64,000 bases of DNA, from contig NZ_RPDH01000001.1 in NCBI RefSeq assembly GCF_003813775.1, positions 1,550,001-1,614,000 on the forward strand, read 5' to 3'. The notes below the pieces were generated by a model. That model was given only the letters and a program-made list of their open reading frames with translations, had not been told where the DNA came from and did no database searches. This document shows, in pieces, positions 21,612 to 38,140 of this stretch (position 1 is the stretch's first letter; every line of letters starts with the position of its first letter). The stretch is from Chitinophaga lutea. GTDB lineage: Bacteria; Bacteroidota; Bacteroidia; Chitinophagales; Chitinophagaceae. The position numbers and the translations under genes were made by a program.

Positions 21612-24600
21612 TTAAAAACTAAAGGAAAGGCCGACTACTGCTGACCGGGGAATGGGATACACGCCCCTGTCGATGCCCAGGCTGTTATTGTCATTACTGC
21701 CCGCTTCAGGGTCCATGCCCTTGTATTTGGTGAACGTAAAGAAGTTGTCGAGCGAACCGTAAATCCTCGCGTTGCGGAAATGGATGCGCTTCAGCAGCTG
21801 TTGCGGGAAGGTGTAACCCAGCTGCAACATACGGATACGGGTATACGATCCGTTGGCCAGCATCATATCGCTGTTGTACACGAACTCGCTGCCGGTGTTG
21901 GGCGCAAACCATTTGTTGGTGCTGCCTTCACCCGTCCAGCGGTCTTTGTAGAAAAACTCGGGGCGGTTGCCGGTAGGTCGGTCCACACGGTTGAAGCCCA
22001 TCAGCACGTCGTTCCCCACCTGGCCCTGCACTACGGCAATGACGTCGAAACCTTTGTACGCCATGCGCAGGCTGCCGCCGTACACCACATCGGGATGCGG
22101 GCTGCCGATAAACGTATGGTCGCTGTTGGAGATGGTGCCGTCGCCGTCGATATCCACGATGATCGGGTCGCCGGGTTTGGGCGCTACCGTCATCGTGATC
22201 TTGCTGCTGTATTCATCTACCTGGCGCTGGTTCTGGAAAATACCGTCGGTTTTATACCCGCGGAAATACCAGATAGGATATCCCTTTTCGAACCAGGTGG
22301 CGCCCCAGCCCGTACCCACAGTAGAGCCGGGAAGGCGGTCCACGAATTCATTCAGCCGAATCACCTCATTGCTGATGGTGGTCATGTTCACACCCACTTC
22401 AAACGTGAACGCATGCGTATTGGCGTTGCGGTACGACAGTTCAAATTCCCATCCTTTATTCCTCACATCGCCGCCGTTCACGATCGGCAGGATGTTGCCC
22501 ACGAAACTCGGCACGGTGCCGGGTGTGAGCAGGCCCTTGGTGGTTTTGTTGTAATAGTCGACGGTAAAGCTCAGACGGTTGTCGAGGAAACCCATGTCGG
22601 CCCCGAAATCGAGCTGCTCGCTTGCTTCCCATTTCAGGTACGGGTTTTCCAGTCCTGCCGGTTCAGCGCCCACATGGAAGTTGCCGGTGCCGTCAGGAAA
22701 CGAGATGCCCTGCGTGGTGATAAGCGATTTCCAGTCGCCGATGTTGATATTGGAGATGCTGCCGTTCTGTCCCCAGCTGGCGCGCACTTTCAGGTAGTTG
22801 AGCACGCTCTGCGGGAAAAACGATTCGTTGGTAACGATCCACCCGGCGGACACGGAGGGGAAGGTGCCCCAGGTGTTCTGCGGTGGCAGCAGCGAAGAAC
22901 CGTCGCGGCGCAGGGTAGCATTCAGGAGATATTTTCCTTGGTAATCGTATTGGATACGGCCATAATATGACACCATGGAAGTGCTGCTGGCCACGCCGGC
23001 AATGCGGTCCTGGTCGTCGGGCAGGTAGTCCGGGTAGCCGAACGCCTCTTCTTCCCTGAACATCCCTGAAGCAGTCCCGTTCAGGCGGTTGTAGTTCCGC
23101 CGCAGGGCGCTCATCCCGGCCATCAGGGTAATATCGTGCTGGTTGAATTTGCGGTTGTAGGTGGCGAAGTTTTCCCACTGCCAGGTGCTCCAGTTTTCGT
23201 TGTTATCCGCCGTGCTGGGCACCGTATTGAGACGGTTCGCGTTGTAGAAAAAGGTGGGCAGCCAGGCGTGCTGACGGAGGAACATCGCATCGAGACCGAA
23301 GCGCGACGTTACTTTCAGCCCGGCCAGCGGCCTGATTTCCGCATACACGTTGCCGACCACTTTATTCTGTGTGGTGGTATTGTGCGTGATGTCCATCTGC
23401 GCCAGCGGGTTGCCGCCTTCACCGAACACATAATCAGAGATGCCGTAATAACGGCCGTGTTTGTCTTTGATCAGTGTATACCCGTCGTCGAGCGCTTTCT
23501 GCGCGCGGGGCGAGAGACCGTCGGTGTACACCACCGGCATGGTGGGGTCCATCATGATGGCGTTGTTGATCACGGCGCCGAATTCGGAATCTTCCACTAC
23601 GCCGTTCCTTTTAAAATAGGCGTAAGAGAGGCGGTTGCCCACGGAGAGCCATGGTTTGATTTCATGATCGGAGTTGAGGCGAACCGTGTAACGGTCGAAG
23701 CGTGCTTTGTCGCCGCCGATCACCCCGTCCTGGCGGAATACGGAACCGCCGAGCAGGTATGTCGATTTTTCCGTACCGCCGCTGAAGTTGAGGGAGTGGC
23801 GCATCATGGGCGCGGTCTGCGTGATTTCATCCATCCACATGGTGCCCGTTTTACCTTTCCAATCGGCGGGGTTGGGGATGTCGCCGGACGTTTTCGCGTC
23901 GGTGAGGTATTGTGTGTATTGTTCGGCGTTCATCATTTTCATGGCGTTTTTGATGGACTGCCGGGCATATTGCATGTTGTATTCCACGCGGGGCGTAGCG
24001 TCGCGGTGGCCTGATTTGGTGGTGATGATCACTACGCCGTTGGCGCCTTCCGCGCCGTAGATTGCCGCCGATGCAGCGTCTTTCAGCACTTCCACGGAAG
24101 CGATTTCCGACGGGTCGAGGTACTCCATGTTGCCGGCGCGCATGCCGTCGATTATGTACAATGGATCAGAGGAGCCGTTGGAGCCTGTGCCACGGATGCG
24201 TACGCGCATACCGCTGCCGGGAGAGCCCGAAACAGGCAGCACGGTTACGCCGGCGGTGCGGCCTTGCAGCGCCTGTTCAACACGGCTGGACGATACCGTG
24301 GCAATGTCTGCACCCTTCACGGATGAGATGGCCCCCGTTACGAGGCTTTTGCGCTGGCTGCCGTAACCCACTACCACCACTTCGTTCAGGGCTCGGTTGC
24401 TCACGGCCAGGGTCACATCGATATTACGCTGCGCCGCAATCGTTACTTCTTTGGATTCGTACCCGAGCAGGTTAAACACCAGCGTTTTGCCCGAAGCGGC
24501 TTCCAGGGTGTACCTGCCTTCACCGTCGGTTTGTGCGCCGCGCAGCTCACCTTTCACCAGTACCGCCACCCCGGGCAGCGGCGTACCGTTTTCACCGTCG

Positions 24601-25124
24601 GTGATACGGCCGGAGATCTTTACTTTTTTCACGGTGTCGGCCGCATTGCTCTGCCCGATACCGCCCGCAGCGCCGTTGAGTTTCAGCAGGGAAGGATTGG
24701 CGGGCGCCTCCTCACCGGCCTGTTGCCGGGAAGGTACGGAAGGTTTGTTTTTGCTGTTGGGCTCGTCTTTCAGCGGAACGATCGCCCAGGTGTTGGGTTG
24801 TACCGCCTGTGCCTGCAAGCCGTACGGCATCAGCAGCGCCCTGAGCATCGCTTCTACATTTTCGTAAGCGGAAGGCGTAAAGCTGACTTTTACTTTAGGG
24901 AGATTTTTTGCCTCGTACAGCAGGTCGATTTTGTATTCTTTGTGGATTTCTTTTAAAAGCTGGACAAGGGTTTTCTGCTGAAGGGAATTGGCGGAAGCTT
25001 GCTGCCAGGTGGCCGGCCGGCGGTTCACCGCCACTTCCTGCAGGGGGCCGGCAAGCGCGCCCACGGAAGTGGCTGTTGAAACCGCGAACAGCAAGGCGCC
25101 GCGCAGCAATAATGATGAATTCAT
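21612..25124 (-). CDS. SusC/RagA TonB-dependent transporter with STN signalling domain
   Basis: The 1170-residue outer-membrane transporter imports the ligand captured by SusD. After a signal peptide comes an STN domain (about 48-118, LVQLLKEIHKEYKIDLLYEA) that contacts the FecR anti-sigma factor. A carboxypeptidase-like domain follows (ISGRITDGENGTPLPGVAV), then the TonB plug (NEVVVVGYGSQRKSLVTGAI, LQGRTAGV) and the barrel ending in the aromatic LSFSF. The upstream fecR and ECF sigma genes indicate cell-surface signalling: substrate binding releases the sigma factor, which activates this operon. Confidence 0.95.
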   Translation of the reverse strand: MNSSLLLRGALLFAVSTATSVGALAGPLQEVAVNRRPATWQQASANSLQQKTLVQLLKEIHKEYKIDLLYEAKNLPKVKVSFTPSAYENVEAMLRALLMPYGLQAQAVQPNTWAIVPLKDEPNSKNKPSVPSRQQAGEEAPANPSLLKLNGAAGGIGQSNAADTVKKVKISGRITDGENGTPLPGVAVLVKGELRGAQTDGEGRYTLEAASGKTLVFNLLGYESKEVTIAAQRNIDVTLAVSNRALNEVVVVGYGSQRKSLVTGAISSVKGADIATVSSSRVEQALQGRTAGVTVLPVSGSPGSGMRVRIRGTGSNGSSDPLYIIDGMRAGNMEYLDPSEIASVEVLKDAASAAIYGAEGANGVVIITTKSGHRDATPRVEYNMQYARQSIKNAMKMMNAEQYTQYLTDAKTSGDIPNPADWKGKTGTMWMDEITQTAPMMRHSLNFSGGTEKSTYLLGGSVFRQDGVIGGDKARFDRYTVRLNSDHEIKPWLSVGNRLSYAYFKRNGVVEDSEFGAVINNAIMMDPTMPVVYTDGLSPRAQKALDDGYTLIKDKHGRYYGISDYVFGEGGNPLAQMDITHNTTTQNKVVGNVYAEIRPLAGLKVTSRFGLDAMFLRQHAWLPTFFYNANRLNTVPSTADNNENWSTWQWENFATYNRKFNQHDITLMAGMSALRRNYNRLNGTASGMFREEEAFGYPDYLPDDQDRIAGVASSTSMVSYYGRIQYDYQGKYLLNATLRRDGSSLLPPQNTWGTFPSVSAGWIVTNESFFPQSVLNYLKVRASWGQNGSISNINIGDWKSLITTQGISFPDGTGNFHVGAEPAGLENPYLKWEASEQLDFGADMGFLDNRLSFTVDYYNKTTKGLLTPGTVPSFVGNILPIVNGGDVRNKGWEFELSYRNANTHAFTFEVGVNMTTISNEVIRLNEFVDRLPGSTVGTGWGATWFEKGYPIWYFRGYKTDGIFQNQRQVDEYSSKITMTVAPKPGDPIIVDIDGDGTISNSDHTFIGSPHPDVVYGGSLRMAYKGFDVIAVVQGQVGNDVLMGFNRVDRPTGNRPEFFYKDRWTGEGSTNKWFAPNTGSEFVYNSDMMLANGSYTRIRMLQLGYTFPQQLLKRIHFRNARIYGSLDNFFTFTKYKGMDPEAGSNDNNSLGIDRGVYPIPRSAVVGLSFSF

Positions 25125-25241
25125 AATATGGAATTGTAAGGTTAAACAATTTGGCTTTTCCGGTTGACATGCCGCAGGTAATCAGTCTTCGCTGTGGAAA
25201 CTGTCAGTTAAAATCCGATCTGATTTTGGTTGCGCCGTTTT

Positions 25242-26135
25242 CTAATCTTTCACCGAAAACAGCAGCTGTTCATCTTTTGTTTCAATCTGAATGTTCATTG
25301 TTATAGACAATGCGCGGGACAACTGTGTAATGTCTTCTGCGTAAAGATCCCCGCTGATCTTGCGTTGTTTTATTTCAGGCGTCAGTATCACTACTTCGTA
25401 TCCGAATTTGGACCGTATCAGGGCTGAGATATCAGCCATGGAAGTATTCTCGAAATGATACCGGTGATTGCGCCAGTCTGCTATCAGGTCTATATTGATG
25501 GCTTCCTTCAGCCGCGAATAATTTTTTTCCACCAGCACCTCGTCGCCGGGTTTCATCATGATCACGTTTTTTCCTTCGGTGATGGGCGCTTTGGCGGTGA
25601 GCTGCACCTTGCCTTCCTTGAGTGAAACGGTGGTGCGGGCGCCCAGCATGTTAACGTTGAACTTGGTGCCTAACACGGCCACATCGATATCCGGCGTATG
25701 CACTACGAACTGGGCATTGCCGGCGCCGGGCTTTTTGGTGATCTCAAAATAGGCTTCCCCGTCGAGCCACACCCCGCGGCTTTCCGAAGGATTCCATTCC
25801 TCCGCGATGCGCAGGGTGGAATTGGCATTGAGGAATACCACGGAACTGTCCGGCAGCATCACCTGCCTGATTTCCCCGTACGCGGTGCGGTATTCTTTCA
25901 TCCCGCCGCCTACGATATTGCAATAGATGTTGTACGAAGCATAGGCGATCAGGGGCAGCAGCACTACGGCAGACAAAGCCATCCACACGCGGCGTTTCCC
26001 CGCGCCGGATTTTTTCCCGGCTATGCGGGATGCTACCTGCTGCCAGCTGGCGGCCGTTTTTTCCTTCGGCACCGGCTTTCGCCTGAACCGGAAGGGCGGG
26101 TTACCCGGGTCCTGCGTCGAAAATTGATCGTCCAT
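25242..26135 (-). CDS. FecR-family anti-sigma factor
   Basis: This 297-residue inner-membrane regulator has a short cytoplasmic N-terminus, one membrane span near 48-72 (VWMALSAVVLLPLIAYASY) and a periplasmic FecR domain (YGEIRQVMLPDSSVVFLNANS; DIDVAVLGTKFNVNML), followed by a DUF4974-like C-terminus (FENTSMADISALIRSKFGYEV). It holds the ECF sigma factor encoded just upstream and receives the signal from the STN domain of the SusC at 21612. Confidence 0.93.
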   Translation of the reverse strand: MDDQFSTQDPGNPPFRFRRKPVPKEKTAASWQQVASRIAGKKSGAGKRRVWMALSAVVLLPLIAYASYNIYCNIVGGGMKEYRTAYGEIRQVMLPDSSVVFLNANSTLRIAEEWNPSESRGVWLDGEAYFEITKKPGAGNAQFVVHTPDIDVAVLGTKFNVNMLGARTTVSLKEGKVQLTAKAPITEGKNVIMMKPGDEVLVEKNYSRLKEAINIDLIADWRNHRYHFENTSMADISALIRSKFGYEVVILTPEIKQRKISGDLYAEDITQLSRALSITMNIQIETKDEQLLFSVKD

Positions 26136-26200
26136 AACATCCGCGGTTTAATAGAAAGACACCATATCCGTTCGGGGATACTCTTTTTCCGGCATCTTTT

Positions 26201-26800
26201 TTAGAAAAAATATTGAAAAACGTACAGGAACAGCCACCAGAGTGGCGTTTTTCCCATCATGGCACGCAGCTGCGTGATGGCTTTATGGGCCAGGTTGATG
26301 ACCGACTGGTAATTGACTTTCATGATGACGGCCACCTCACTATAGGGCAGCTCTTCATAAAAACGGAGGAAGATCACTTCTTTCTGCCTTTTCGGCAACT
26401 GGTTGAGGTACTGGCTCATGCGCACGCGCAGGGCGGATTGTTCTTCTTCGCCGATGAGGATGTCTTCCGGCGAAAATTCTATGTCCGGCTCTCCGGGCGT
26501 GAGTATCTGCAGGGAACGCAGCCCGCGTAGCTGGTTGAGGGCGCTGCGGCGGAGCGAAGTGAAAAAGAAGGCGCGCACGTTGCGCAACTCCCCGATCGTA
26601 TCTTTTTTGAACCAAATCCTCACGAACAGCTCCTGCACCACGTCTTCCGCCAGCGCGTCGTCGCCCAGCATGGCAAAGGCGTACCGGTATAAAACCGGAT
26701 GCAATTGGCTGTGGATGTGCGCATATGCCCGTGAATCGCCTGCTCTCACCGCAGTCCAATAGCCCGTAAGATCACCGGCCTGATCATAGGTATCCGGCAT
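26201..26800 (-). CDS. ECF RNA polymerase sigma factor (FecI-like)
   Basis: The 199-residue sigma factor has region 2 at about 38-68 (AFAMLGDDALAEDVVQELFVRIW) and region 4 at about 130-180 (LPKRQKEVIFLRFYEELPYSEVAVIM). It is the first gene of the sigma-FecR-SusC-SusD unit. The C-terminus is odd: after region 4 it ends with PLWWLFLYVFQYFF, a hydrophobic aromatic tail that could be a membrane-seeking segment. Tails of this kind are known in some Bacteroidota FecI-like sigmas. Confidence 0.93.
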   Translation of the reverse strand: MPDTYDQAGDLTGYWTAVRAGDSRAYAHIHSQLHPVLYRYAFAMLGDDALAEDVVQELFVRIWFKKDTIGELRNVRAFFFTSLRRSALNQLRGLRSLQILTPGEPDIEFSPEDILIGEEEQSALRVRMSQYLNQLPKRQKEVIFLRFYEELPYSEVAVIMKVNYQSVINLAHKAITQLRAMMGKTPLWWLFLYVFQYFF

Positions 26801-26858
26801 GAGCGGAAATAGATTTGGTCTGCTGTAAAATAAGCAATAACGACGAAAAGAATAGTTT

Positions 26859-28202
26859 TTATGCGGCCATTTCGACGGGCTCGCGTTTCTCCCTGTTTTT
26901 CCGCGCTTTAGCTTTTTTCTTCAGCCGCTGGATCCACATGATGATGCCCGTTACGGGGAACGTGACGCCCAGCAGGCAAACGATGAAGCCGATAATTTTG
27001 GAAGGAATGCCGTAGATGGAACTGACGTGAATGGGCTTGAACGAGCTCCTGACGCGCTGCCCCAGGTTTCTTTCGCTGAAAGGCTGCACTTTAAGCACCT
27101 TCGCGGCGTACTGGTCGATAAATACGTTGGTGGTGGCTGACTCATGTGCGGCATCGGCGGGCAGCAGGTTCACCACAAAAGCGGCGGCGGAATCTTTCGG
27201 CGCCGACAGGTTGTAATAATAAGCGCCGGGCGCAGCAGTGGCCGCCAGCTGGTAAGCGGAATCGAAACTGATCCGGGGTGTGTTTTCGGTGTATTGAGAA
27301 GAAGGTGGCGGCGTGCCTTTCGGGTCGGAACCGGTCACTTTGTAAATGCCGTTATTAAACCATTCGAACGACCAGGCCAGGCCCGTGAACGCAAAAATGA
27401 ACAGGAAGATGGCCGTATAAAAGCCCAGCACGATGTGCAGGTCGTGGTTGAGGCGCTTCCAGCCCGCCGTCCATTTTACTTTGACGCGCTGGATGAGGAT
27501 ATTTTTGGTTTTGGGCCACCAGAGAATGATGCCGGTGAGCAGGATGAACAGGAACACGAGGGTGGAAACGCCCACGATGACTTTGCCCACGGCCCCGCCG
27601 AGCATCCAGCGGTGCAGGGCGAACATGGTGTAGAAAAAGGTATCCTGGTACACGTATACTTCAATGAGCTCGCCGGTGTATGGGTTCATGAAGGCTTTTT
27701 TACCGCCGCCTTTGCCTGCGGGGGCTTTACCGCCTTTGTCTCCGGCCGTTTTTTCCTGTCCGTTCTTTTCCGCTTTTTTACCTTTCGCCTGTAGTGCTGC
27801 AACTGCGGCATCGCCGTTTTGGGCGTTCACCGCCCCTGTATCGCCTTTCAGAGGTGTTGCAACCGCATCGCCGGCTTTCTCACCGGTAGCGGCCCCACCG
27901 TCTTTTTTCCTGCCCTCGCCTTTCTTGCCCGGTGTGAACGTCAGTTCCACGGAACGCTCCGGGTCACCGTACAGGCGGATGCCGGACACTTTCGCGCCGG
28001 GCTGCTTCGCCTCAAGATTCGCGATCAGGGTGGAAACGGGAAGTTTTTCACCGGCTGGCTTTACATAATACCGGTCGTGGTTGAATGCATGGTTCAGTTC
28101 CTCTTCAAAAACCAGCACAGCGCCGGTGAAACAGGTGACCATAATGACCAGACCGGCTGCCAGGCTGAGGTACAGGTGTATACTGCGGAAAAATACTTTC
28201 AT
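26859..28202 (-). CDS. PepSY-domain transmembrane protein with charged insert
   Basis: The product of about 447 residues is a PepSY_TM protein of the group linked to siderophore or ferric reductases. It has membrane segments near 12-34 and about 210-400 and a cytoplasmic basic tail. The start at 28202 (MKVFFRSIHLYLSLAAG) is preferred: AAAGAAG lies 7 nt upstream and the N-terminus is typical. ATG 28220 would add six residues. Residues 91-169 are an unusual Lys/Gly/Ala-rich, low-complexity insert within the periplasmic PepSY region. A promoter with an operator lies far upstream at 28592-28637, giving a leader of about 380 nt. Confidence 0.87.
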   Translation of the reverse strand: MKVFFRSIHLYLSLAAGLVIMVTCFTGAVLVFEEELNHAFNHDRYYVKPAGEKLPVSTLIANLEAKQPGAKVSGIRLYGDPERSVELTFTPGKKGEGRKKDGGAATGEKAGDAVATPLKGDTGAVNAQNGDAAVAALQAKGKKAEKNGQEKTAGDKGGKAPAGKGGGKKAFMNPYTGELIEVYVYQDTFFYTMFALHRWMLGGAVGKVIVGVSTLVFLFILLTGIILWWPKTKNILIQRVKVKWTAGWKRLNHDLHIVLGFYTAIFLFIFAFTGLAWSFEWFNNGIYKVTGSDPKGTPPPSSQYTENTPRISFDSAYQLAATAAPGAYYYNLSAPKDSAAAFVVNLLPADAAHESATTNVFIDQYAAKVLKVQPFSERNLGQRVRSSFKPIHVSSIYGIPSKIIGFIVCLLGVTFPVTGIIMWIQRLKKKAKARKNREKREPVEMAA

Positions 28203-28410
28203 GGTTTGCTTCTTTATCATATCGGGCAGACCAGGCCCGGCCTGCAAAATAACGGCTTTACGACCCGGGGCGCTTACGCAATCGGGAAATTTTTTAAGCC
28301 AATCGGGAAAAACAGGGGAAAAGCAGTCCAAAAAGGAAAAGGCACAAGCAGAAGCCTGCGCCCGTTTTATTAGCAGCATATTCCTATAAGGCGTTTTTAT
28401 GCCCTCCTCA

Positions 28411-28457
28411 CGGATGCCGCAACAGCGTACCAGCGCGATACGCTGCCTTGGCATCCG
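28411..28457 (-). promoter_or_regulatory. Large hairpin in the leader of the PepSY gene
   Basis: A symmetric structure pairs CGGATGCC with GGCATCCG (8 bp) and, inside a 4x4 internal loop, CAGCGTA with TACGCTG (7 bp) around a 9-nt loop. It lies in the predicted leader transcribed from the promoter at 28592-28599 and about 210 nt before the PepSY start. It has no U-tract, so it is more likely a regulatory or stabilising RNA fold than a terminator. Function is inference. Confidence 0.5.
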
Positions 28458-28591
28458 CAAACGGGTGTGCCGTCATGGGAGGTTATTCAAATTCATCTCA
28501 GATTTTATATGTAAACTTTTATGTATATCCGCAGCATCTGTCCATTCGGGGCTCATACATGGGGTTGTTTACAGGCAATGTTTCCTGCATA

Positions 28592-28637
28592 CAAAGGTAG
28601 GCAGTCGCTTTTTGCCGCCAACCACATAAATATGTGA
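28592..28637 (-). promoter_or_regulatory. Minus-strand promoter with CCACAT-N4-ATGTGG-type operator (copy 1)
   Basis: Read on the minus strand, TCACAT-ATTT-ATGTGG (28637-28622) is followed directly by TTG (28621-28619), 19 nt, then TACCTTTG (28599-28592). This is a full Bacteroidota promoter pointing at the PepSY gene, with a dyad immediately upstream of the -33 element. The same dyad lies 73 bp upstream of the divergent sensor kinase gene, where TATTTTTG at 28686-28693 is a possible -7 box. Confidence 0.65.
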
Positions 28638-28709
28638 ATTAGCGGGAATGGCCACCAGGTTGTTATTTTAATGCGCCAAAGCGATTATTTTTGGGGGATT
28701 CGATTCACT

Positions 28710-31700
28710 ATGCATGTATCCCTTAAGGCCAGGCCCCTCTTCCTGATCACCGCGCTCCTGCTGCTACGCCTCGCAGCGGCCGCCATGCCCCAGTCCCACA
28801 TCTTTTCCCGCCTCACGGCGGAAGACGGATTGCGCAGCAATTACGTGCATGCCGTTATGCAGGACAAAAGCGGCTTTATGTGGGTAGGCAGCCAGGGCGG
28901 TCTCCAGCGGTACGACGGGCGGCAGTTCGAATATTTTCCCTTTCCCCAGTTCCCCGGCGTGGCCCGCCAGGGTGTGCAGCACATCATCGAAACCAACGGC
29001 AACACCCTCTGGATCGCCTACAACACCTGCGTGGTGACCTACGACTATGTGAGAGAAAAAGCCGCACTCGTGCCGGTGCAATACCAGTCGCACGAAAAAA
29101 GTTTCCAGGCCACCCAGCTGTTTACCGACAGCCGCGGCCTCATCTGGCTCTGCACCTCCACCCACGGCACTTTTTTATACGACCGGGTGGCCAAAGCTTT
29201 CGTGCCCTTCTCACGATTTTTCGGCGACACGGCGTTCAGGATATTCAACGTGGCGGAAGACCCGCTCACGCATGATTACTGGCTGGGCACCAGCATCGGC
29301 CTGTGCCTGCTCGACTACCGGAACAAACATTGTTACACGCCGGCATGGAACCCGCACCGCATCCCCCTGCTGGCGGAACCGGCCATGCAGCGCACCATCA
29401 CCCGCCTGTATGGTGACAGCCGCGGCGGGCTTTTTATCAATACCTGGGGCCGGCTGGAAGAACTGCCGTCGTTTTTTCACTACAACCCGAAAACCCGCCG
29501 GCTGGGCGCCCCGCAGCGGATGGGCGCCATGGCGCAACTGCTCGAAGACCGCAAGGGCATGGTATGGTCGGCCGGCGACAAACTGCTCCTGTTCTCGTCC
29601 GACGGCAACCTGCAGCAGGAATTTCAGCGCGATCAGTTCGCCCGCTACGGTCTCGACTACACGGATATGTTCTGCCTCGAAGAAGATAACATGCAGAACA
29701 TCTGGATAGGCACCAGCAACGGGCTGTTCATTTTCAACCATACCCGTCAGCAGTTTCAGACCACGGCATTCAAGCCGGCCGGTGTTGCCGGTCCCTCCCC
29801 GTTGCTGGAGGCCGCGGACATCTGGCAGCACCCGAACGGCGACGTATGGGTCGCCAGCTGGGGACAGGGTTTGCTGGTGTACGACAGCACGCTGACGCTG
29901 CTCAAAAAACATCTCCTGCATCCCACGGATTACCAGCGAAACATGCTCTGGTGCCTGCAGCCCCTTCCCGATGGCCGCGTGCTGGCAGGCGCGCAGCATG
30001 CCAACCTGCTCACGATCGACCCGCGCACGTGGGCCGTGGAGTACCGCGTATTATCCGGACTCGATAACCGCACCATCCGCTGCATGACGCTCGATGCCGG
30101 AGGAAATGTATGGATAGGCACGCAACGGGGCCTCATCGCCAAATGGGATTACCGCCGCGACAACATCCGCGTTTTCCGCGACAGCCTGTACCGGAAAGAG
30201 CTCTTTTTATGGAACCACGTCCAGGACATCCATGCCGGCTCCGACGGCCACATCTGGGCCGGCACGGCCAATTACGGGCTGCTGAAACTGGACACTGCCG
30301 GCAACATCGTACAGCGTTTCGCCACGGACGAAAAGCGCCATACACTGCCCGGTGATAACGTGCGCCAGCTGCAGCCCGCGGGCAACAACCTGCTGTTGGT
30401 GGGCGCCGGCGGCATCGCCGTGATAGACATGCAGCATAACATCGTCATCAACACGCTCACCGAGGAGCAGGGCCTGCCCGGGAATGTGATCACCAACCTA
30501 GTGCCCATCAGCGCCCAGCAGGTATTTTTCACCTCCAATTTCAGCGCGGGGAAAGTCAACCTGCAAGCCCGGAAGGTGGTGCACTTCGGGCGCAAATACG
30601 GTGTGGCGGACGAATCGTTCCAGTTGCCCGCCAGCATGAGGCTTCGCGACGGGCGCATCGTGTTCGGCGCTACGAAAAACATCCTGTCTTTTCAGCCGGA
30701 CAGCCTGCGCGAGCCGCAGCGCCCGCCCGACGTGCGCATTCACTATTTTAAAACAGGCGGCGACGTCAAATCGCCCTACCAGCCCATGCAGGCCGGCGGC
30801 GCGCGCATCACACTCGATCATACCAGCAACACTTTTACGATCGGGTACACCTCGCTGGCATACCTCGAGCAGGACAACCTCACGTATTATTACCGCCTCG
30901 AAGGCATCGACGCCGGGTGGGTCAATGCGGGGCAGCGGCAGTATGTGAACTACAGCAACCTGGCGCCCGGGGATTATGTGTTTCATGTGTATTGCGAAAA
31001 CGGCGAGGGCCTTGCCACCAGAAGCATCACCAGCATGGCCGTGAGCATCGCCAAACCGCTGTGGCGGAAAGGATGGTTCTATGCCGCCATCGTGTTGCTG
31101 ATCGCCGGCGCGGTATTCCTCGTGCACAGCCTGCGCGTGAACCGTATCATGGCCACGGAGCAGGTAAGGCGGCGCATCGCGCGCGACCTGCACGACGATA
31201 TGGGATCCACGCTCACATCCATCAACATCATGAGCTCCATGGCGCGGCGCAATGCGGACAGGAACGACCTCTCCAAAACGCTGGAATTCCTCGTGAAGAT
31301 CGGCGAAAGCACTACCCAGATGATGGAAAGCATGGACGACATCGTATGGAGCATCAATCCGCTCAACGACAACACCCAACGCGTCATCGCCCGCATGCGC
31401 GAGTTCACCACCGGCGTACTGGAAGCCCGGCAGATCGGGTTTTCTTTCCTGGTGGATGAAAAGATTTTTACCCGCAAGCTGCGCCTTGAAAGCCGCCACG
31501 ACTTTTTTATGATCTACAAGGAAGCCATCACCAACATCGCCAAATATGCCCAATGCACCTTTACCGACATCCGCGTGCAGCTCCGCAAGGGACAGCTGGT
31601 ACTGCGGGTGCAGGACAACGGCGTGGGCTTCAATATCAGCGAGGCCGGCGAGGGCGACGGGCTACAGAACATGCAGCGGCGGGCCTACCGGATGAACGGG

Positions 31701-31766
31701 CAGCTCAGCATCCAGTCGCAGCTCGGCAAAGGCACCGTGGTGGTGCTGATGTTCCCCACCACATAA
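28710..31766 (+). CDS. Sensor histidine kinase with beta-propeller input domain
   Basis: This 1018-residue membrane kinase has a signal/anchor at 1-25, a periplasmic two-component-regulator propeller built of repeats such as GFMWVGSQGGLQRYDG and NVWIGTQRGLI, and a Y_Y_Y domain near 690-770. One membrane span lies at about 787-808. The HisKA_3 dimerisation region RRRIARDLHDDMGS carries phospho-accepting His828, and a NarL-type ATPase (DNGVGFN) follows. Unlike hybrid HTCS regulators it has no receiver or DNA-binding domain; the next gene supplies those. The start at 28710 puts the signal sequence at the N-terminus; an in-frame ATG at 28671 lies before the -7 box. Confidence 0.92.
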   Translation: MHVSLKARPLFLITALLLLRLAAAAMPQSHIFSRLTAEDGLRSNYVHAVMQDKSGFMWVGSQGGLQRYDGRQFEYFPFPQFPGVARQGVQHIIETNGNTLWIAYNTCVVTYDYVREKAALVPVQYQSHEKSFQATQLFTDSRGLIWLCTSTHGTFLYDRVAKAFVPFSRFFGDTAFRIFNVAEDPLTHDYWLGTSIGLCLLDYRNKHCYTPAWNPHRIPLLAEPAMQRTITRLYGDSRGGLFINTWGRLEELPSFFHYNPKTRRLGAPQRMGAMAQLLEDRKGMVWSAGDKLLLFSSDGNLQQEFQRDQFARYGLDYTDMFCLEEDNMQNIWIGTSNGLFIFNHTRQQFQTTAFKPAGVAGPSPLLEAADIWQHPNGDVWVASWGQGLLVYDSTLTLLKKHLLHPTDYQRNMLWCLQPLPDGRVLAGAQHANLLTIDPRTWAVEYRVLSGLDNRTIRCMTLDAGGNVWIGTQRGLIAKWDYRRDNIRVFRDSLYRKELFLWNHVQDIHAGSDGHIWAGTANYGLLKLDTAGNIVQRFATDEKRHTLPGDNVRQLQPAGNNLLLVGAGGIAVIDMQHNIVINTLTEEQGLPGNVITNLVPISAQQVFFTSNFSAGKVNLQARKVVHFGRKYGVADESFQLPASMRLRDGRIVFGATKNILSFQPDSLREPQRPPDVRIHYFKTGGDVKSPYQPMQAGGARITLDHTSNTFTIGYTSLAYLEQDNLTYYYRLEGIDAGWVNAGQRQYVNYSNLAPGDYVFHVYCENGEGLATRSITSMAVSIAKPLWRKGWFYAAIVLLIAGAVFLVHSLRVNRIMATEQVRRRIARDLHDDMGSTLTSINIMSSMARRNADRNDLSKTLEFLVKIGESTTQMMESMDDIVWSINPLNDNTQRVIARMREFTTGVLEARQIGFSFLVDEKIFTRKLRLESRHDFFMIYKEAITNIAKYAQCTFTDIRVQLRKGQLVLRVQDNGVGFNISEAGEGDGLQNMQRRAYRMNGQLSIQSQLGKGTVVVLMFPTT

Positions 31767-31805
31767 GCATGTGGTTGACGGAATGGCCGCCGGGCACTAC
31801 CTTTA
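31759..31805 (+). promoter_or_regulatory. Operator-promoter for the response regulator gene (copy 2)
   Basis: CCACAT-AAGC-ATGTGG (31759-31774) overlaps the kinase stop codon. It is followed directly by TTG (31775-31777), 20 nt, and TACCTTTA (31798-31805), one base off TAnnTTTG. The regulator gene starts at 31827. The arrangement matches copies 1 and 3. Confidence 0.65.
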
Positions 31806-31826
31806 CAAAAGAGCAATATTCAGGCT

Positions 31827-32459
31827 ATGATCCGAATCGTGTTATACGAGGATAACACCAAACTGCGGGAGAACTTAACATTGTTGATAGACGGAGCACA
31901 GGAATACGTGGTATGCGGCGCGTTCAAAAACTGCGACCACATTCTGCAGCAGACTGCCGAGCTGCTTCCCGACGTCATACTGATGGACATCGACATGCCA
32001 GGCACCAACGGCATTGAAGGCCTGCGTATCGTGCGCAGCCAGCATCCCCTCCTGCCCATCCTCATGCTGACAGTATTCGACGACAACCAGCACGTGTTCG
32101 AAGCCATCAAGGCCGGGGCAGACGGTTATCTTCTCAAAAAAACACCCCCTGAAAAACTGCTCGAATACATCCGCGAAGTGTACGAAGGCGGCGCCCCCAT
32201 GACCTCTTCCATCGCCCGGCAGGTGCTGCAGCTCTTTGCCCGGCCTGCCCCCGACAGGAACGACGACTACAAATTATCCGAGCGGGAAAGGGAGGTATTG
32301 CAATTGCTGGTGAACGGTTACAGTTATAAAATGATCGCCGCGGAAATTTTCATTTCCATCGATACGGTGCGTTCCCACATCAAAAAGATTTATGAAAAGC
32401 TGCACGTGAATTCCAAGTCGGAAGCCGTGGCCAAGGCTTTCCGCGACAAACTGCTCTGA
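31827..32459 (+). CDS. LuxR/NarL-type response regulator
   Basis: The 210-residue regulator has a receiver domain (EDN at 8-10, phospho-acceptor Asp54 in LMDIDMPG, conserved Lys in YLLKKTPP) and a C-terminal LuxR helix-turn-helix (LSEREREVLQLLVNGYSYKMIAAEIFISIDTVRSHIKKI). It is the partner of the kinase encoded 60 bp upstream. The repeated CCACAT-N4-ATGTGG dyads nearby are the best candidate binding sites, one in front of this gene, suggesting autoregulation. Confidence 0.94.
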   Translation: MIRIVLYEDNTKLRENLTLLIDGAQEYVVCGAFKNCDHILQQTAELLPDVILMDIDMPGTNGIEGLRIVRSQHPLLPILMLTVFDDNQHVFEAIKAGADGYLLKKTPPEKLLEYIREVYEGGAPMTSSIARQVLQLFARPAPDRNDDYKLSEREREVLQLLVNGYSYKMIAAEIFISIDTVRSHIKKIYEKLHVNSKSEAVAKAFRDKLL

Positions 32460-32526
32460 TACCTCATCCAGTTCCCGCCGCTCACCCGTTTTCCGTACCG
32501 GTCGTCCCCATTTGCGCGGATGCAAA

Positions 32527-32573
32527 CCACATCGTTATGTGGTTGTATCGGTAAGCGGGGTATCGCAACTTTG
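32527..32573 (+). promoter_or_regulatory. Operator-promoter for the YD-like lipoprotein gene (copy 3)
   Basis: CCACAT-CGTT-ATGTGG (32527-32542) abuts TTG (32543-32545). After exactly 20 nt comes CAACTTTG (32566-32573), a -7 box with one deviation. The lipoprotein start is at 32620. Dyad-to-promoter geometry is identical to copy 2. Confidence 0.62.
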
Positions 32574-32619
32574 CATAGTAAATGAAAACAAAACGGAAAC
32601 CACAATTCAATCACTGATC

Positions 32620-33402
32620 ATGTTTGCTTTTAAACCCCATACTATTGTGCTGTGCGCGTGCAGTTTGCTTTTGCTGGCCGCAGGCTGCCGTAAAAAGAAA
32701 GAAGACAAGGCAGAACACCCCGCCGGAGAGCGGCTGCTGATGAAAGTCTCGGATGGAGACATGAATCACGAACGGTTTGAATATGCCGGCGACCAGGTGG
32801 TGAAATACATCTACTATCCCGGCTTTGGCCGGGATACGTCGTGGCAGCTGATCGAATACAGCGCTGGCCGCCAGCAGAAGGTCACCCTGTGGAACGGCCG
32901 GTACATGACCATGGAATACAGCGGCGACACCCTGGTACGGATGAATGAGTTCAGCAAGGAGCAGGTAGCCACAGGTTACCGTACCTACCGCTACAGCAGC
33001 GGCCGGCTGGCGGAAGAACGGGCTTACAGGGGCGACGCATTGCACAACAGGAGCGAATATACGTATGATGCGCAGGGCAACCGGCTGACAAAAACATATT
33101 ATGTGGATGAGGATGGCAACGGCGTAAAAAAGCGGTCGGTCACCGAATACCTGGATTACACCGATCACCCCGATCCGCTGACGGCGCTGTTCGAAAAGAA
33201 GTTCGCGTTGGGCAGGAAGTTCAGTCCACGCCTCTGGCAGAAAGAAATCCACCGCGACGAAAACGGCTTTGAAGAATGGACCACTGAATTCAGTTATAGT
33301 TTCGACGGCCAGGGTTACCCCGTCAGCAGAAAAATGACATCATATAACCCGGACCGGCAGGTATTGCGCCGTTCGGATGTAAAGTTTGCATACCATCATT
33401 AA
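32620..33402 (+). CDS. Hypothetical lipoprotein with YD-like repeats
   Basis: The 260-residue lipoprotein begins MFAFKPHTIVLCACSLLLLAAGC, with a lipobox before the cysteine at 23. The body contains repeats like RSEYTYDAQGNRLTKTYYVDEDGN, resembling RHS/YD-type beta-strand repeats found in surface proteins. No enzymatic motif is visible. The start at 32620 gives the signal peptide; the longer frame from 32512 would run through the promoter. It has its own operator-promoter resembling that of the regulator gene, so it is probably a target of the two-component system. Function unknown. Confidence 0.75.
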   Translation: MFAFKPHTIVLCACSLLLLAAGCRKKKEDKAEHPAGERLLMKVSDGDMNHERFEYAGDQVVKYIYYPGFGRDTSWQLIEYSAGRQQKVTLWNGRYMTMEYSGDTLVRMNEFSKEQVATGYRTYRYSSGRLAEERAYRGDALHNRSEYTYDAQGNRLTKTYYVDEDGNGVKKRSVTEYLDYTDHPDPLTALFEKKFALGRKFSPRLWQKEIHRDENGFEEWTTEFSYSFDGQGYPVSRKMTSYNPDRQVLRRSDVKFAYHH

Positions 33403-37884: not shown

Positions 37885-37892
37885 TAGGTTTG
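37885..37892 (+). promoter_or_regulatory. -7 promoter element of the cobalamin-riboswitch transcript
   Basis: TAGGTTTG matches TAnnTTTG and lies just before the aptamer, giving a transcription start near 37898. Confidence 0.6.
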
Positions 37893-37904
37893 CCCCCGGT
37901 AAAC

Positions 37905-38140
37905 GGTTGTCCAGGGCGATAACATCGCCTCCAGGGCATTAATAGGGAATCCGGTGAAAATCCGGAGCTATCCCCGTAGCTGTAATCCCGCTCCCTGCAT
38001 TTGAAGGGAACGTTTTCCGGTATCTGCAACCACTGTTCTGTCTGACGGCAGGATGGGAAGGTACCACCGGAAAGCGGGAAAGCCAGAAGACCTGCCGCCT
38101 GCCTTTTATTCAATCCGCGCTTTCGGGTGAAAAGCGGAGG
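37905..38140 (+). ncRNA. Cobalamin (B12) riboswitch
   Basis: The region carries the usual landmarks in order: GGGAATCCGGTGAAAATCCGG at about 37945-37965 (the GGTGNAAATCC element), CCCCGTAGCTGTAA, CAACCACTG at 38027-38035 (B12-box type), and AGCCAGAAGACCTGCC at 38081-38096 (the closing element). A CCGCGCTTTC / GAAAAGCGG hairpin at about 38117-38139 may be the expression platform. It precedes a BtuB-like receptor gene, so rising cobalamin should reduce expression of the uptake genes. Confidence 0.93.

Follow-up and report, generated by a model that had tools for sequence, protein, structure and literature searches.

Candidate operators of a NarL/LuxR-type response regulator in Chitinophaga lutea and their relation to its recognition helix

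Introduction

Response regulators of the NarL/FixJ type, such as NarL, VraR, DesR and DevR, consist of a receiver and a GerE/LuxR-type helix-turn-helix (HTH) and bind palindromic operators. Class II activators usually have their operator centred at -42.5 or -43.5, as with the lux box of LuxR at -42.5. In the hybrid two-component systems of Bacteroides a propeller sensor is fused to an AraC-type output. To our knowledge, few response-regulator operators have been described in the Bacteroidota. A candidate operator, YCACAT-N4-ATGTGR, is reported here from a 64,000-nucleotide (nt) stretch of Chitinophaga lutea (assembly GCF_003813775.1, contig NZ_RPDH01000001.1, positions 1,550,001 to 1,614,000, forward strand), referred to in full as the window. 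The dyad is found at the promoters of a propeller sensor kinase, a NarL/LuxR-type response regulator and neighbouring genes. Sequence comparison indicates that the response regulator at 31827–32459 very probably binds these dyads as its operator.

The regulator shares the receiver, the GerE/LuxR-type HTH and, by prediction, a palindromic operator with NarL, VraR, DesR and DevR. The half-site YCACAT differs from those known for the four; the promoters here are of the Bacteroidota -33/-7 type and one operator is common to two divergent promoters. The dyad centres, about -42.5 and -43.5 on the numbering given below, resemble the lux box, with activation here a prediction. Unlike the lux box, operator 1 would also serve a divergent promoter from about -68.5. 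The Reg_prop/Y_Y_Y sensor is shared with the Bacteroides hybrid systems, but kinase and regulator are separate here and the output is LuxR-type rather than AraC-type; the locus is thus not a hybrid system. No description of this operator was recognized in a full-text literature search, judged by titles and abstracts and with most subscription journals outside its scope.

Operators and promoters in the window

The dyads, the -7 octamers and the two-component pair are situated as follows (aa, amino acids).

28622–28637, no strand assigned: operator 1, CCACATAAATATGTGA, one mismatch, common to the divergent PepSY and kinase promoters
28592–28599, minus strand: -7 octamer of the PepSY promoter, TACCTTTG, 22 nt from operator 1
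28686–28693, plus strand: -7 octamer of the kinase promoter, TATTTTTG, 48 nt from operator 1
28710–31766, plus strand: sensor kinase, 1018 aa from a revised start, with Reg_prop propeller, Y_Y_Y, HisKA_3 and HATPase_c
31759–31774, no strand assigned: operator 2, CCACATAAGCATGTGG, which covers the TAA stop of the kinase gene (31764–31766)
31798–31805, plus strand: -7 octamer of the regulator's own promoter, TACCTTTA, 23 nt from operator 2
31827–32459, plus strand: NarL/LuxR-type response regulator, 210 aa, Pfam Response_reg and GerE, recognition-helix residues 178–184 IDTVRSH
32527–32542, no strand assigned: operator 3, CCACATCGTTATGTGG, 5′ of the lipoprotein gene
32566–32573, plus strand: -7 octamer of the lipoprotein promoter, CAACTTTG, 23 nt from operator 3

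The three dyads, a TTG directly after each (on the minus strand at site 1) and octamers beginning 19, 20 and 20 nt later had been described in the original prediction, and all of these hold in the window sequence. TACCTTTG and TATTTTTG match the -7 consensus TAnnTTTG in full, TACCTTTA and CAACTTTG are one position off, and the lipoprotein box starts with C instead of T. The -7 box spans -12 to -5 according to PMC9723704. Counted from a box so placed, the operator centres lie at about -42.5 (PepSY), -43.5 (regulator and lipoprotein) and -68.5 (kinase). On the same numbering the 22–23 nt offsets place the operator over -33/-35 with its centre near -42, the position expected of a class II activator promoter.

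At two or fewer mismatches the dyad occurs 8 times in the window, with a mean of 2.82 in shuffled sequence and 8 reached in none of 100 shuffles. The whole 6.6-Mb genome has three exact copies, two of them in the window, 768 bp apart.

The regulator scores above the cut-off for both Response_reg (85.5 bits) and GerE (65.2 bits) and thus belongs to the NarL/FixJ type. In all 25 NCBIfam families listed of 104, with NarL, MadR, MctR and NarP among the named equivalogs, it falls under the curated cut-off; NarL gives the best score among these, 137.8 bits where the cut-off is 250. By sequence, its closest relatives of solved structure are NarL (1a04) and VraR (5hev). The kinase ATG is more likely at 28710 than at 28671, since the conserved box TATTTTTG sits between them.

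Conservation within the genus

Regulator orthologs were called at E ≤ 1e-75 in 79 same-genus genomes, the best 39 first-look candidates being scored per genome. Fifteen genomes, the window's own included, carry an ortholog. These consist of 12 main-clade genomes and three diverged ones (G015, G068 and G082; loci L048, L109 and L110). The original prediction had named loss of the dyads from related genomes with the kinase/regulator pair as one result that would refute it; the comparison did not refute it. Site 1 is present in all 15 at no more than one mismatch of YCACATNNNNATGTGR, and site 2 in all 15, with one mismatch in two. Site 3 is YCACATNNNNATGTGR without mismatch in 10 of the 15; no match at two or fewer mismatches is found in the three diverged genomes and G092, and the G006 sequence ends before the site.

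The -7 boxes keep their register as well. On the PepSY side the octamer is 22 nt from site 1 in 12 of 15 genomes, all main-clade (TACCTTTG in 10, TACCTTTA in 2); in the diverged group it is found at 23 nt in G015 and is absent in G068 and G082. The regulator promoter has its octamer at 23 nt in 15/15 (13 TACCTTTA, one TAATTTTA, one TAACTTTA). At site 3 it is at 23 nt in 10/10, as CAnnTTT[GA] (eight CAAnTTTG, one CAATTTTA, one CATTTTTA). The kinase octamer lies 48 nt from operator 1 in all 12 main-clade genomes (nine TATTTTTG, one TAATTTTG, two TATTTTTA). The diverged genomes show no kinase box at 48 nt; they display an octamer-like box at 17 nt and a different gene on the other side.

In the regulator promoter, mean pairwise identity over the 15 genomes is 95% for the arms, 96% for TTG, 95% for the octamer and 38% for the intervening 20 nt; the arms had been selected by the search, TTG and octamer had not. 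The spacer that separates dyad from octamer is 38% identical at the regulator promoter, 40% identical at site 3, 54% on the PepSY side and 62% on the kinase side, with octamers at 91–96%. The kinase stop codon is at an identical place within operator 2 in 15/15 genomes. The left arm is therefore partly coding, and the right arm and TTG are non-coding.

The TTG that abuts the dyad at all three window sites had been taken for a -33 element. Among the relatives it is retained in 14/15 regulator promoters and 10/10 lipoprotein (site 3) promoters, but on the PepSY side in only 7/15 genomes. There it is missing in 5 of the 12 main-clade genomes although dyad and -7 box remain. As TTG is not kept at all promoters, its role as a required -33 element was rejected.

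Four genomes (G035, G025, G006 and G079; L046, L047, L049 and L108) show a kinase of just 268–317 aa next to an 86–88% identical regulator, with the operators retained. The two shortened kinases tested, of G035 and G079, keep HisKA_3/HATPase_c and yield no Reg_prop or Y_Y_Y match.

Co-occurrence with the regulator and distal targets

A composite motif, CACATNNNNATGTG-N23/24-NANNTTT, was searched in the 79 genomes. There are 52 matches in 14 of the 15 regulator-bearing genomes (none in G068). The 64 genomes without the regulator give 11 matches, one each, and the reversed control gives 11 over all 79. At least two copies are found in 12/15 regulator-bearing genomes and in 0/64 others (Fisher p = 9e-12).

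A distal lipoprotein promoter with the dyad and a -7 box is present in this genome at C2:950981 (box TAATTTTG). Both this distal class and the kinase-facing side of site 1 go beyond the original prediction. In 11 genomes, among them this one, distal genes encoding lipoprotein-like proteins of about 135–150 aa carry the dyad 23 nt upstream of the box; their homology was computed in 4 cases, the rest being judged by their first residues. Of the genes divergent from these, the one at L072 was examined and encodes a TolC-like OEP. A second lipoprotein-like family (about 265–275 aa) shows the dyad at the 23-nt offset in 4 genomes. TTG follows the dyad in 0/4 distal type-b lipoprotein promoters. In another genus, L219 carries the dyad 23 nt before a 202-aa open reading frame (ORF) and before a YD-like lipoprotein. 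The similarity of this lipoprotein to the second family is weak (single comparison, E = 6e-7); to the window's own lipoprotein E is 7e-4.

A dyad is also found between an SDR gene and another LuxR-type response regulator (helix LRTVDTH), kept in 7 genomes (L071, L074, L076, L114, L118, L122 and L125); these show no -7 box at 22/23 nt. Matches in or overlapping ORFs were set aside as background (L067, at G000 C1:451794; L069, L112, L116, L120, L124, L129 and L130).

Genes adjoining the sites

The genes that adjoin the sites in the window are the following.

26859–28202, minus strand: PepSY_TM membrane protein, 447 aa, Pfam PF03929, heading a sigma factor/FecR/receptor-like group
26201–26800, minus strand: extracytoplasmic function (ECF) sigma factor, Pfam, same direction as the PepSY gene
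25242–26135, minus strand: FecR, Pfam, same direction as the PepSY gene
21612–25124, minus strand: large outer-membrane receptor-like protein, named from its sequence alone
32620–33402, plus strand: lipoprotein-like protein, 260 aa, weak YD-repeat match (TIGR01643, 18.2 bits), lipoprotein signal judged by eye

The PepSY, sigma factor, FecR and receptor-like genes (21612–28202, minus strand) are presumably co-transcribed. The 260-aa product shows no Pfam family at E ≤ 0.001. A lipoprotein-like ORF of more than 150 aa lies behind site 3 in 7 of 10 genomes and was not found in G003, G035 and G079. The predicted PepSY transcription start lies about 385 nt ahead of the PepSY ATG (window 28202–28592), and no Rfam family matches this stretch above cut-off. 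Elsewhere in the window a cobalamin riboswitch is found at 37887–38113 (plus strand, 87.7 bits).

Operators of related regulators and the recognition helix

Of 14 regulators from other genera (62–71% identity), 8 have NNACAT..ATGTNN 22–23 nt before the box of the regulator gene: L131 (Flavihumibacter), L132 (Sediminibacterium), L133, L211, L212, L213, L214 and L215. L219 has the dyad at downstream genes and L216 farther upstream, with no box. No site of this class was found at L217, L218 and L238 (1.6–3.6 kb per locus), and L239 shows only TAGCAT..ATGCGA. Paralogous regulators (L027–L043, about 45% identical) show no dyad of this class; a weaker TAACAT..GTGTTA repeat is present in three.

More distant regulators also have palindromes in this register, but these differ in sequence. 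Over 131 upstream regions (170 fetched, 135 non-redundant, less 4 genus orthologs), the 22-nt offset has 9 palindromes and the 23-nt offset 15. Each other offset from 2 to 59 nt gives 0–4, and the shuffled mean is 0.3. Other pairings near this register (22–24 nt) are TCATTG..CAATGA with helix ATVN (L240, L148 and L273), TCCCCTGATTnGGGGA with YETVR (L025, L152 and L262), and nnnCTA..TAGnnn with HTVN/NTVN (L143, L228 and L237).

Operator and helix were compared in 34 of the 135 non-redundant regulators, those with a palindrome, with a slightly wider box allowed and the genus rows kept. Operator similarity correlates with that of the helix at r = 0.66, with the receiver at 0.39 and with the rest of the HTH at 0.46. 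The partial Mantel value for helix and operator is 0.564, reached by none of 5000 permutations (highest 0.316). When the variable positions among 60 are ranked singly, 179, 182, 178 and 183 come first. Operator sequence thus goes with the recognition-helix residues more closely than with other parts of the protein, and this favours the regulator as the protein that binds.

With phenylalanine at 183, 7 of 8 regulators have a YTACAT operator, compared with 0 of 26 non-Phe helices. CTACAT composites over 396 genomes of the order give 39 match rows in 25 genomes and 9 control matches, so that part of the 39 is background. Thirty CTACAT loci were fetched, of which 11 contain a regulator, 8 of them distinct, and 7 of these 8 have Phe at 183. 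Three of the 7 were already used, that of G430 is 96% identical to the used L146 and that of G070 78% identical to the used G268. Given this overlap only those of G308 and G102 are clearly new, and these are alike (helix ATVQFH). G037 has no dyad in its own promoter; its helix LETVRTY predicted YCCCATNNNNATGGGR (YCCCAT class), which is found once in 17 kb of G037, 23 nt before GATCTTTG. A tree that leaves out the helix residues shows 4 changes of the Phe operator and 5 of Phe itself.

We lean, if only slightly, towards a general rule: in a large NarL-type family of the Chitinophagales and relatives, part of the members would carry an autoregulatory 16-bp palindrome 22–23 nt before the -7 box, with a half-site readable from helix residues 178, 179, 182 and 183. 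IDTVRS would specify NNACAT (mostly YCACAT), DTVRF CTACAT, I/LETVR mostly YCCCAT, YETVR mostly TCCCCT, and HTVN often nnnCTA.

Evidence for and against the assignment

Assignment of the dyads to this regulator is based on the co-occurrence of motif and regulator, the same operator beside 62–71% identical regulators, and the covariation of helix and operator. A number of observations weigh against it or against its extension to relatives. Genome-wide the dyad (one mismatch or fewer) is not enriched, 13 against 29 for the reversed-pattern control, so the evidence must rest on position, i.e. clustering and promoter register. The bare relaxed motif is weak, being found in 59 of 79 genomes; it stands 8 times in G101, a genome with neither a regulator ortholog nor a composite match. 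Sixty-four of the 79 genomes have no regulator ortholog at the threshold used. One of the 52 composite matches (G021 C13, one of five in G021) lies elsewhere and looks like chance.

Among the 135 non-redundant relatives, 101 have no dyad at the register in their own promoter. The Phe helix of L246 is without a Phe operator, and the Ser helix of L213, a redundant row not used in the comparison, goes with one TTACAT half-site. The held-out class test is of small size, with the matched operator class at 3 of 28 loci and mismatched classes in 0 of 140 tests. The 28 loci are 27 regulators (L021 = L050), and L235 is the only new one of the three hits, L050 and L219 being known already; two held-out Phe-helix loci show no Phe operator. 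In addition the relatives are not independent, with 1–2 well-supported independent pairs, so that tree-aware significance is unreachable.

The PepSY target is not conserved either. With the gene facing site 1 on the minus side taken as the first ORF of at least 90 aa, a PepSY-like ORF is found in 4 of 12 main-clade genomes (G000, G025, G076 and G079; likeness Pfam-tested only in G000), and a sigma-factor-like ORF in 5 (G003, G021, G062, G070 and G072). G035, G006 and G092 (L046, L049 and L111) keep the 22-nt PepSY-side promoter with no recognized gene facing it; there the promoter may target a small RNA or an unrecognized gene. The facing genes vary while dyad and octamer stay, hence the promoters are better conserved than their neighbours. 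The original proposal, that the regulator controls all three genes and itself, is supported by the conserved sites, the co-occurrence and the helix covariation as a prediction from sequence, with the PepSY gene as a target in some genomes only.

Alternative explanations

The regulator could bind the dyads and repress, its dimer covering -33 and blocking sigma, with the kinase signal lifting or imposing repression and the regulator under negative autoregulation. The dyad does overlap the -33 position, and the near-constant TTG of the regulator and site 3 promoters looks as if sigma reads it too; in the three diverged genomes the box-like sequence of the kinase side, at 17 nt, departs from the class II register by roughly half a helical turn. 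Centres at -42.5/-43.5 are, on the other hand, usual for class II activators. The absence of TTG at 5/12 PepSY sides and 4/4 type-b promoters is expected if the regulator replaces the -33 contact, and the lipoprotein -7 box begins with C instead of T. Repression is thus unlikely, and class II activation is the most likely role of the regulator. This reading is based on the operator position, from the absence of TTG at several targets where dyad and octamer are kept, and from the imperfect octamers.

Binding of the dyads by some other protein, be it a global factor, one of CRP/FNR type or the second LuxR-type regulator near the SDR-side dyad, with the proximity of the pair incidental, is quite improbable. 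Some dyads do lie elsewhere, such as the SDR-side one with no box at 22/23 nt, and bare dyads occur in genomes without the regulator, but the composite motif co-occurs with the regulator and the operator shifts with residues 178, 179, 182 and 183 of the adjacent regulator. A CRP-type site was rejected on this covariation and on arm order, which is opposite in CRP-type sites. A role of the dyads in RNA, whether as hairpins, attenuators or terminators, is scarcely credible, and so is their origin as inverted repeats by chance. The dyads are inverted repeats, and operator 2 lies within the kinase transcript at the stop codon, but they stand upstream of the -7 boxes and so outside the target transcripts, and neither the conserved register nor the helix covariation agrees with such a role. 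No terminator-like site was found in 31700–32700, and the site-1 region, in a search that included riboswitches, gave no Rfam family above cut-off. Chance is rejected by the register, the co-occurrence with the regulator and the footprint.

Implications

In the favoured model, binding of the dyads by the regulator, the propeller kinase would phosphorylate the regulator, and a regulator dimer would occupy the dyad with one recognition helix per half-site. Situated at -42.5/-43.5 of three promoters, over the -33 region and thus in the class II place, it would recruit RNA polymerase to weak promoters. The site-1 dyad is also at about -68.5 of the kinase promoter, which would allow a single bound dimer to act on both divergent promoters. 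The result would be positive feedback on regulator and kinase, and control of the PepSY/sigma/FecR/receptor group and of small lipoproteins, including the distal C2:950981.

The predicted operator comes with a fixed register, targets and a feedback topology. The regulon appears to work like that of a NarL-type class II activator and would be an additional case of such control. What could be new is the helix-operator rule. If it holds, binding sites of many such regulators would be predictable without experiments, and the operators, hence the regulons, of many uncharacterized two-component systems could be predicted from protein sequence.

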